A stretch of DNA of 64,000 nucleotides, taken from Camellia lanceoleosa (taxonomy: Eukaryota; Streptophyta; Magnoliopsida; Ericales; Theaceae). Position 1 is the first letter of the stretch, and each line of letters begins with the position of its first letter. Location of the stretch: contig CM045763.1 of assembly GCA_025200525.1 (NCBI GenBank), forward strand, positions 154,758,246-154,822,245. The letters are read 5' to 3'. The notes beneath the pieces were generated by a model. It was not told the origin of the DNA. It was given only the letters and a program-made list of their open reading frames with translations, and made no database searches. Shown piece after piece: positions 6,690 through 27,000 of this stretch. A program made the translations under genes and the position numbers.

Positions 6690-7970
6690 TTGATGGAAAG
6701 ACCAGAATTCTTTGCCAGACTGATTTTGCTCAGCAAGATGAAAGTTGGTGTTTTGTTCAACTTTGGAATTCCTTGCCGAGCTGATTTTGTTCGACAAGAG
6801 GTTTGTTGATGGTTTTGATCAACTTTGGAACTCCTTATCAGGCTGATTTTGCTCAGGAATATGAAATTTGATGCTTTGTTCAACTTTGGAATCGCTTGCT
6901 GAGCTGAATTTGCTCGCTAAGAAGTAAATTGCTGAACTAGTTTTCCTTGTCAACTTTAGAATTCCTTGCCAAGCTAGTTTTGCTCGCTAAAAAGTAAGTT
7001 ATCGAGCCAACTTTGCTTGCCAACTATAGAATTCCTTGTGGAGTTGATTTTGCTCGACAAGATGAAAATTGGAGTTTTGTTCAACTTTGGAATACCTTGT
7101 TAAGCTAATTTTCTCGCCAAGAAGTCTTGCCAAGTTGATTTTGCTAGCCAAGAATTAAATTGCCGAGCTAATTTTGCTTGCCAAGAAACAAGTTGCCGAG
7201 CTAAAGTTTGCTCACCATCTTTAAAATTTCTTCGCAAGCTGATTTTTCTTATCAAGAAGTCTTATTGAGCTGATTTTGCTCACTAACTTTAGAATTCCTT
7301 ACTGAGTAGATTTTGCTCGCCAAAAAGTCTTGCCGATTTGACTTTGCTCGCCAGCTTTTAAATTCCTTGCCGAGCTAATTTTGCTCACCAAGAAGTCTTT
7401 CTGAGTTGGTTTTGCTAGCCAAGAAGTAAGTTGCCGAGCTAACTTTGTTCGCCAACTTTGAGATTCCTTACCAAGCTGATTTTGCTTAGCAAGAAGTCTT
7501 GTTAAGCCAATTTTGCTCGTCTAGAAGTTGTTGCATAGATTTTGCTCACCAAGAAGTCTTATCGACCTGACTTTGCTCAATAACTTTAGAATTTCTTGCC
7601 AAGCAAATTTTACTCGCCAAGAAGTCTTGTCGAGCTAATTTTGCTCCCCAACATTAGAATTCTCTGTCGAGCTGATTTTGCTTGCCAAGAAGTAAGTTGC
7701 CAAACTGATTTTCCTCACCAACTTTAGAATTCCTTGCCGAGCAGATTTTGCTCGCCAAGAAGTCTTGCTAAGCTGACTTTGCTCGCCAACTTTAGAATTC
7801 CTTGTCGAGTTTATTTTGCTCGCTCAAAAGTAAGTCACCAAGCTATTTTGCTCGCCGAGAAGTAAGTTGCTAAGCTAAGCTGGTTTTACTCTCCAAGAAG
7901 TTGTTGCGCTAATTTGGCTCACCAAGGAAATTGTTGAGCTAACTTTGCTTACTAAGAAGGTGCCCAGCCG
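6690..7970 (+). repeat. Internal tandem repeat, ~31-36 bp units in ~62-65 bp pairs
   Basis: Dozens of imperfect copies of GAGCTGATTTTGCTCGCCAA, alternating AAGAAGTCTTGCC and CTTTAGAATTCCTTGCC spacers. AACTTTAGAATTCC recurs about every 62 bp in the best-preserved part (around 7727 and 7789). The array starts about 260 bp after the gag end and occupies the place where pol would normally lie. Copy divergence is high, so the array is old. Confidence 0.9.
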
Positions 7971-22869: not shown

Positions 22870-22915
22870 TTGAGTGCATATGATAATGAGTTTATATACG
22901 AGAGATGACGATGAG

Positions 22916-22939
22916 TGACAAGAAGAGAGTGAACACACA
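22916..22939 (-). ncRNA. Distal miR156*-like arm (star copy 2)
   Basis: The minus strand reads TGTGTGTTCACTCTCTTC then TTGTCA. It is the complement of miR156 with one extra T and one G-U pair. It is a better match to the 5' arm than copy 1 but lies about 105 nt from it, with copy 1 inside the loop. Confidence 0.75.
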
Positions 22940-22983
22940 TAAGTGCATATGAATATATATATATATGAAAGATGATGATAGGC

Positions 22984-23006
22984 GACAGGTCAAGAGTGAG
23001 CACACA
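22984..23006 (-). ncRNA. Proximal miR156* arm (star copy 1)
   Basis: The minus strand reads TGTGTGCTCACTCT then TGACCTGTCG. Fourteen bases pair perfectly with the seed-distal half of miR156 and five or more with its 5' end. The central CTT of a standard star is replaced by TGAC, giving an internal loop opposite miR156 positions 7-9. Confidence 0.8.
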
Positions 23007-23043
23007 GAATTTCAAGCATGAACTTTCCATGAAAAAACTATGT

Positions 23044-23063
23044 GTGCTCACTCTCTTCTGTCA
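23044..23063 (-). ncRNA. miR156: Mature miR156
   Basis: The minus strand reads TGACAGAAGAGAGTGAGCAC, identical over 20 nt to the conserved plant miR156, with the required 5' U in RNA. It sits on the 5' arm of the hairpin, the arm used in known MIR156 genes. Confidence 0.95.
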
Positions 23064-23220
23064 CCTCTCTTAATAATAATAATTGTATCACCTGTTTTGT
23101 TTTTGGATCTTCAAGCGTCTTCTCTGCAACCCAAAAGGCTAAGCAAGAGGCTAAGGTTTTGAAAAAAATGAAAAGAAAAGTTTGATTTGGTTTGTGTAAA
23201 GAAGTGATGGATTGTCGTAG

Positions 23221-23227
23221 CTTTATA
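23221..23227 (-). promoter_or_regulatory. Candidate TATA box of MIR156
   Basis: TATAAAG on the minus strand (context CTCCTATAAAGCTACG), about 160 nt upstream of mature miR156. This predicts a start near 23190-23196 in a CA-rich context, as usual for plant pri-miRNAs. A second AT motif, CCATATATATTC near 23280, is an alternative. Confidence 0.5.
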
Positions 23228-24084: not shown

Positions 24085-27000
24085 AATTGCTTTAAAGACC
24101 AGTTAAAGCTAAACATAAAAGAATGCATATAGTGAGCTGTTTAGCAACAGAATTGAAAGTGTCCTGAAAATCAATGCCATGTTCTTGAAGAAATCCCTTA
24201 GCAACAAGGCGGGATTTATGTCGAGCCACAATACCATCAAAAATTTTCTTAAGTTTAAAAACCCACTTACACCCAATGGCTTGTTTAGCTGGTGGAAGAG
24301 GAACCAAGGACCAAGTGTGTTGCATTTGCAAGGCAGAATATTCATCTAACATGGCTTGAAACCAAATAGGAGAGGTAAGAGCTGATTTGTAAGAAAGAGG
24401 TTCAGTTGAGGAAGCAGGACAAGGACTAGAAGCAAGAAAACAAGAAGAAAAAGGAAGAGAAGAAGAAAGTTTAGACTTGGATCTAGTTTGCATACTATGA
24501 GTGCTAGAAGTAGAAGAGGGAGTAGGAAGAGGTAAATGAATAGGAATAGAATTAATAGGGATAAGAAATTTGGTGAAGGTGATTTTGAAGTAGTGGTGAT
24601 TCTTTGTGGCGGTCTAAGCCGCTGAACTATTGAGGCAATCGAGATAGTGAACAGTAGGGGACAGTTGAGTAGGCTGGGAATGTGAGAATGGAGTAGGCAG
24701 AGGCTGTGATGGCAGCAGAGGAGACTGTGAAAGAGGCATGGGATGCCGAGGCTGTAGAGGAACAAACTTAGGAGAAGAAGACCAAAAGAAGAAAGAGATT
24801 AGATGGAGTAGGTGTAGTAGATGTAGGAGATGTAGTATAAAAGGAAAAATTGTTTCATGGAAAACAACATGTCTAGAAATAAGAGTTTGACCAGTTTGCA
24901 AATTGAAGCACCTATAACCTTTAATGGATGGATGATAACCCAAAAATACACAAAGGCTAGATTTAGGTTGTAGCTTATGAGTGGAAGAAAATCAAAGCCA
25001 AGGATAGCAAAGCCAACCAAACACTTTAAGCAAAGAATAATCCGGGGAAGTGTGAAATAAAAGTTGAAAATGGGAAGCATGAGACAAGGAAGCACTAGGA
25101 AGCCTATTAATAAGAAAAGTGGCAGTGGCAATAGCAACAAACCAATGGAGAAGAGCAATGGCAGTTTCTATAATGTGCTTGTGTTTTCTCTCAACAACAC
25201 CATTTTGAAAGGGTGTATGAGGGCAAGATTGTTGATGCAAAATGCCATTTGTTTTGATAAAATGTTCCATTTGATGATTGATAAATTCTCCACCACCATC
25301 TGTCCTAAGGATTTTGAGAGGAAATCCAAATTGTTTTTCAACAAAAGATTTAAACTCCAAGAACTTAGAGTAAACTTCACTTTTATAACTCAAAGGATAA
25401 AGCCAAGTAAAGCGAGAGTAATCATCAACAAACTTATAAATGGAAGTAGAACCAACAGGTTGAAAGGGACCTCAAACATCACTATGAATAAGAGCTAATG
25501 GTTGATTTACATGAGAATTAGACAATTTGAAAGGCAACCGATGACTCTTAGACATAGAACAATCAACACAAGAAAATGAAGTTTTATTTGAACCTAAAGG
25601 TATATTCAAAAACTTATAAAGATGTTGAAACTTGGAAGCTGAAGGATGGCCGAGCCTTTGATGCCAAAGCATGAATGAATCTGGAGAAGTAGTGGTGCTA
25701 TGAAATGCTTGAGGTAAAGAATGCAAAGGAAAATGGTAAAGACCATGAGTATGGAAGCCTTTATGAAGTGTAGCTTTGGTATTGTTGTCCTAAATAGAAA
25801 AGGCAAAGTTATTAAAAGTAATAGAACAATTATTGTCTTTGGCTAATTGTTGAATGGAAAGAAGATTAGAAGAAAGAGAAGCAACATGCAACACTCTTTT
25901 GAGTTTGAAAGAATGATGTGGAGTAGGTAAAATACCTGAACCAGAATGATGAATAGGTAGAGAAGAGCCATCAGCCACAGTGACTTTCTCAGAACCAGTG
26001 TAAGGTTGATAGGTAGTCAGATTCCCAAGATCATTAGTAATATGATCTGTGGCAGCAGAGTCAAGATACCAAGGCTGAAGAGAACAATTCTGGGAAGCAA
26101 CTTCGGAGGTAGATGTAGTGTAAGCTTTAGAACCAGATAAAGCAGGAAGATGCTGTGGAGAAGACTGATTTGACTGCTAAAAATGAGGATCCATGCGATG
26201 CCATCACTCAAATACAGAGTGATTTGGCTTGCCACAAATCTGACAAACCGAACCAAAAGTAGATCGAATTTGATTGTGATTTTTGGATTGATACCTTCCT
26301 CTAAAAGAAGAAGAATATCTACCACGGACAGACCTATTCCTTTGTAATTACCTCGAGAATCTCCTCTTTAGTTAGATCCGCTATGATGATATGTAGAAAA
26401 ACCTTTTGAAGAAGAAGCATTATCTTTCATAATAGCATAGGCGAGAAAGCTGAAGAAGATTTTTTTTCTTCAACATATAAAGCTTCAAAATACTGAAAGA
26501 AGATAATTCATCCATAGTAATCCCTTGAGCGAGCTCTAATAGTAGTTTTAAAAGCATCGTATTCACTTGGCAATCCATTCAATGTGATGAGAACTATGTC
26601 TTCATCATCAACCGAAGTTGGGGCAAGATGTAATTGATCAGCCAATTCTTTGATATGACTCAAGTAGAGTTCCATAGACTCAGTTTTCTTAGATATTGAA
26701 TTAGGTTTATTCTTCAATTGGTGGATATGAGATCTAGAAAGAGAGGTAAGCCGCTTATTGAGAGTTAGGCATCCCTCAGAGCTAGTTTTGAGATGAAGAA
26801 CAGAAATGAAAATCGATGGTGAGAGAGTAGCAGTGACACAGCTGAGAAGATGATTATCAATCATCTTCCATTTAGAAAATTCAAGATTATGTATCTCTTT
26901 TCCAGTTAAATCAAGAAAAAAGGAGAAGGATATGAAGACGATCCATCAAGAATATCAAGAAGATCGGTTGCTCGAGTATATTACAGAATTGTGTTTTCCA

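Follow-up and report, generated by a model that had tools for sequence, protein, structure and literature searches.

A Camellia MIR156 gene with a second, tandemly duplicated 3' arm

The miR156 locus and its two arms

The window (the whole stretch of 64,000 nucleotides that was analysed, C6:154758246-154822245 of the Camellia lanceoleosa assembly) carries a MIR156 locus on its minus strand. The exact 20-nt mature miR156 lies at 23044-23063 (20/20 identical), where a preliminary description of this DNA had placed it, and it was the sole match in the window at three or fewer mismatches, with 0 expected from 100 shuffles. Rfam model RF00073 (MIR156) matched at 22982-23064 with 66.4 bits, which just slightly exceeds the cut-off of 62 bits. 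The proximal miRNA/star duplex contains two unpaired miRNA bases and a 2x3 internal loop, with no large bulge. The locus thus combines what marks the MIR156 family, namely the mature sequence on the 5' arm, a hairpin above the cut-off and a miRNA/star duplex with few mismatches, and it is probably a working gene of ordinary MIR156 structure. The following features were placed at the locus:

23221..23227, minus strand: TATAAAG, candidate TATA box, ~158 nt 5' of the miRNA (read by eye)
23044..23063, minus strand: mature miR156, 20 nt, exact (pattern search)
22982..23064, minus strand: MIR156 precursor, the proximal hairpin (66.4 bits with Rfam RF00073; predicted fold energy −48.6 kcal/mol; upper stem of 15 pairs beyond the miRNA 3' end)
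22981..23001, minus strand: predicted proximal miR156 star, 21 nt (inferred position, from the 2-nt overhang rule; the miRNA bases facing it are unpaired at positions 7-8)
22942..23009, minus strand: tandem duplication unit 1, proximal arm and its 3' flank (alignment, 51/68 columns identical)
22914..22934, minus strand: distal star-like arm, second miR156 complement (one bulged base and one G-U pair)
22873..22942, minus strand: tandem duplication unit 2, distal arm and its 3' flank (alignment)

Two 3' stretches, both downstream of the miRNA on the same strand, are complementary to miR156. An inverted-repeat search returned a proximal arm of 20 nt (90% complementary, 22 nt between arms) and a distal arm of 21 nt (95% complementary, 97 nt between arms). 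Paired with the extended miRNA strand, the proximal arm gave a duplex energy of −43.1 kcal/mol and the distal arm −45.3 kcal/mol, against a best background value of −24.9 kcal/mol among 2302 stretches taken from 20-26 kb. Both searches therefore agree with the earlier claim that two separate 3' arms can pair with a single miR156. Some of its details needed correction. The internal loop in the proximal pairing is present, but it spans miRNA positions 7-8 and not 7-9. Distal pairing, which had been called almost perfect, does engage all 20 miRNA positions and is strong, but it includes the bulge and the G-U pair listed above, and the loop it encloses measures 95-97 nt and not about 105 nt.

The arms lie in two direct repeats that abut head to tail, with units of 68 and 70 nt in the alignment, as expected from the described direct duplication of ~68 bp holding both arms. 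The units are identical at 75% of the aligned columns. Their alignment score was reached by 0 of 2000 shuffles, and after removal of the arms by 1 of 2000, which indicates that the duplication reaches beyond the arms. Together with the background duplex energies, these shuffles rule out a chance origin of the arms and of the duplication. An identity of 75% between units points to an old duplication; a recent duplication and an assembly artefact were both rejected on the same ground. Divergence was alike in the arms (20/27 identical columns) and in the flanks (31/41). A short tandem duplication would thus long ago have copied the 3' (star) arm along with ~40 nt of flank.

Comparison with other MIR156 loci

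The genome searched comprises 3.0 Gb in 790 contigs. A miR156 pattern search of it returned 33 places, 20 of them exact and 13 with a single mismatch; 30 were examined as loci and three were not. Defining a near arm as one of −29 kcal/mol or better within 60 nt, we found 12 loci with a near 3' arm, one with a far arm and 17 with none; the 17 are presumably SPL target sites read on the opposite strand. The count of hairpins rests on this pattern search, as 59 of 156,558 candidates were scored in the genome-wide Rfam search. Among the 12 near-arm MIR156/157 hairpins examined, the window locus (L005) was the sole one with two arms for one miRNA. The expectation that ordinary MIR156 genes have one arm pair is therefore upheld within this genome, and the window locus is a real structural variant of an ordinary MIR156 gene, singular among these hairpins.

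A far arm was also seen at L019 and L022, where it is part of another complete hairpin that has a miRNA of its own. These two loci (on C1 and C2, respectively) are MIR157-type two-hairpin clusters and represent a second tandem arrangement in the family. Complete clusters of this kind, in which the second miRNA follows the first at distances of 261 and 270 nt, leave room for the window locus to be the remnant of such a cluster, one that gained an entire second hairpin by duplication and then lost the 5' arm and loop of that hairpin. However, the two units abut at 68-70 nt with arm followed by flank in both, for which a simple partial duplication suffices, and no trace of a second 5' arm was detected at four or fewer mismatches in the 3-kb locus L005. 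We consider a cluster remnant unlikely.

The nearest paralogue in the same genome, L008, resembles the window locus at 81% identity over 93 nt of hairpin and in its loop type, but it has one 3' arm only. A second genomic copy of the two-arm locus was looked for and rejected, since only L008 aligned, over those 93 nt and one arm. The distal arm likewise had no second copy in the genome at two or fewer mismatches (a reversed control pattern gave 8 matches). Compared with the MIR156 family (RF00073), the locus is alike in mature sequence, 5'-arm position, hairpin fold, 15-bp upper stem and above-cut-off match, and it differs by the second, distal miR156 complement in the tandem 3'-arm duplication.

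A study of MIR156 in tea, Camellia sinensis, describes 28 precursors whose stem-loops are 'typical and stable', and a second arm is not mentioned in the available portion of its text (PMC10819883). Its csn-MIR156 genes lie on seven chromosomes, whose numbers are those of the contigs that carry our 12 near-arm hairpins (C1, C2, C6, C7, C10, C14 and C15), and csn-MIR156c lies on chr06; equating that gene with the window locus is uncertain, as C6 also holds L040 (PMC10819883). Star reads and low miR156 counts are mentioned, with no sequences, in the accessible part of a tea small-RNA study (PMC4209041). Six fragments of the two predicted stars did not occur in the literature text searched, and no case of duplicated or competing star arms was met in the literature searched by title and abstract opening.

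Locus L040 (C6:195218824-195218843) is the one with a far arm. It carries a MIR156-like miRNA with one mismatch and a 3' arm 211 nt away; most of the stretch between the arms forms a long, near-perfect palindrome, such as the insertion of a MITE into the terminal loop might leave, and no Rfam match was obtained at E 0.01. Outside plants, the exact miR156 20-mer had 0 matches in viral contigs. Four bacterial records with the exact 20-mer were rejected as MIR156 genes, having no complementary arm and no Rfam match. These records (L001-L004, from Solirubrobacter, Geminicoccus, Modestobacter and Blastococcus) have in common one near-identical stretch that bears the 20-mer and lacks a hairpin; it may be mobile DNA or a contaminant of common occurrence.

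Predicted folding and processing of the transcript

Both arms claim the same miR156, and the two hairpins are mutually exclusive, as had been proposed. Their competition was assessed by folding the minus strand in two ways: constrained folds, in which the opposite arm was blocked, gave energies for each fragment length, and unblocked folds gave the distal share. The bare hairpins had energies of −48.6 kcal/mol (proximal) and −43.6 kcal/mol (distal). With one arm blocked, the proximal fold reached −57.9 kcal/mol vs. −55.5 kcal/mol for the distal fold at 241 nt, and −86.2 vs. −83.1 kcal/mol at 401 nt. The unblocked distal share at 37 °C was 27% at 171 nt, 25% at 201 nt, 2% at 241 nt and 0% at 401 and 801 nt.

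A working two-state precursor, in which the distal arm pairs in part of the transcripts and either lowers, redirects or conditions DCL1 processing or gives a second star, would draw on the mutually exclusive pairings and on the nearly equal one-arm-blocked energies of the 201-nt fragment (−52.1 kcal/mol proximal and −51.3 kcal/mol distal). Against it, the distal share ranged from 0 to 3% in all folds above 201 nt, whichever 3' ends, 5' ends and temperatures were used, so that only in the two shortest fragments was the distal arm predicted to pair with miR156 in a sizeable fraction of molecules. Cooling did not favour the distal fold either, as its share in the 201-nt fragment was 3-11% at 10-30 °C, which is below the value at 37 °C. 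The fold comparison that the preliminary description had suggested thus yields near-equal energies at 201 nt and dominance of the proximal hairpin in all longer folds. In transcript-length folds, for which the transcription start at 23195 is a guess, proximal pairing was still favoured at 10-30 °C (416-nt transcript). Folds of the growing chain, which are equilibrium folds and not kinetics, had the proximal hairpin complete once the 3' end stood at 22980, before the distal arm exists. The proximal hairpin is predicted to take nearly all of the miRNA in the transcript, with negligible competition between the arms.

Upper-stem structure also separated the two folds. Above the miRNA, the proximal hairpin forms 15 pairs; the corresponding counts in single-arm loci are 14 for L008, 14 for L007 and 12 for L006. 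The distal fold has only 6 pairs above the miRNA, followed by a 95-nt loop. According to the available text of one study, loop-to-base cutting is directed by a terminal loop that lies 15-17 bp above the duplex (PMC8688358); an upper stem of that length is present in the proximal hairpin and absent from the distal fold. Another, in the portion consulted, reports that Arabidopsis pri-miR156a is cleaved in the loop-to-base direction and that altering its upper stem lowers miR156 (PMC4973740), and loop-to-base pri-miRNAs, pri-miR156e among them, are described in the accessible text of a third as processed on the nascent, polymerase-attached transcript (PMC9023350). The Camellia locus would presumably follow the processing-direction rule of Arabidopsis, in which case the distal fold would be a poor DCL1 substrate as well as a rare one. 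The preliminary description had raised a possible effect of the second arm on Dicer-like cutting, star identity or miR156 output. Prediction disfavours this: the negligible distal share in long folds and the missing distal upper stem, combined with the loop-to-base precedent in Arabidopsis, make an effect of the distal arm on star identity or miR156 output unlikely.

Pri-miRNAs with branched terminal loops are processed in both directions. The hypothetical distal fold is like them in its large, branched loop and differs from them in being predicted to be almost unpopulated.

Pairing capacity of the arms offers evidence pointing the other way. With L008 as the single outgroup for inferring the ancestral arm, the distal arm has undergone 4 changes and the proximal arm 5 relative to their reconstructed common form. 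When equal numbers of changes were drawn at random, pairing as good as observed was kept in 0.7% of cases for the distal arm and 1.4% for the proximal arm (4000 draws each), and 0.35% of 2000 runs that started from the L008 star with 15% change reached the distal-arm pairing. Such better-than-random retention lends some weight to the two-state precursor, which we nonetheless hold to be quite unlikely given the fold shares and the missing upper stem. Purifying selection on both arms, chance, a wrongly inferred ancestor or correlated changes would each explain the pattern, and because arms and flanks have diverged equally we treat it as a hint only. It is very unlikely, in our assessment, that selection has kept the distal arm as a conditional second star, that is, as a built-in competitor that diverts transcripts into an uncut fold and tunes miR156 output.

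Another conceivable role for the distal arm is that of a target or decoy for mature miR156, which would thereby regulate its own primary transcript. The arm is a 20-nt complement interrupted by one bulge and one G-U pair, and it is about half unpaired in the predicted transcript (0.45-0.52). Known target mimics carry their bulge at miRNA positions 9-12. The bulge here lies beside positions 4-6, inside the seed, and the site would soon be detached if the hairpin is cut on nascent RNA, both of which make this role highly improbable.

Proposed history and genomic surroundings

The likely explanation is a MIR156 gene with an old copied star arm, in which the proximal hairpin is processed and the distal arm is mostly an inert relic. 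It is based on the observed sequence and duplication, the fold energies and the rarity of the arrangement in the genome. The transcript would adopt the standard proximal hairpin, and DCL1 would most likely cut it from loop to base by way of the 15-bp upper stem, releasing miR156 and the proximal star. The distal arm would remain outside the hairpin, downstream, and would most likely leave miR156 output unchanged. We infer all three of transcription, the direction of processing and the absence of a distal-arm effect.

Should the distal arm be inert, the locus offers a natural test of loop-to-base, co-transcriptional processing as a shield for the hairpin against a strong downstream competitor. 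If it is active, the locus would hold a structural switch in the pathway by which miR156 times plant phase change. In both cases, it illustrates that partial duplication can alter a miRNA gene without destroying it.

Copia fragments lie ~1 kb upstream of the miRNA, at 24092-24490 and 24992-25390, the second of which fell below the Pfam cut-off. Over 51% of its length, a copia gag protein in the window was 83% identical to a protein from Camellia sinensis, and its best match was 75% identical over 84%. Between 47830 and 63750, several related copia pieces occur in both orientations and are 85-96% alike, which suggests nested insertions. Two tandem arrays were also observed, one at 1-1371 with periods of ~103 and 209 bp that starts at the window edge, and a diverged one at 6705-7958 with units of ~31-138 bp.
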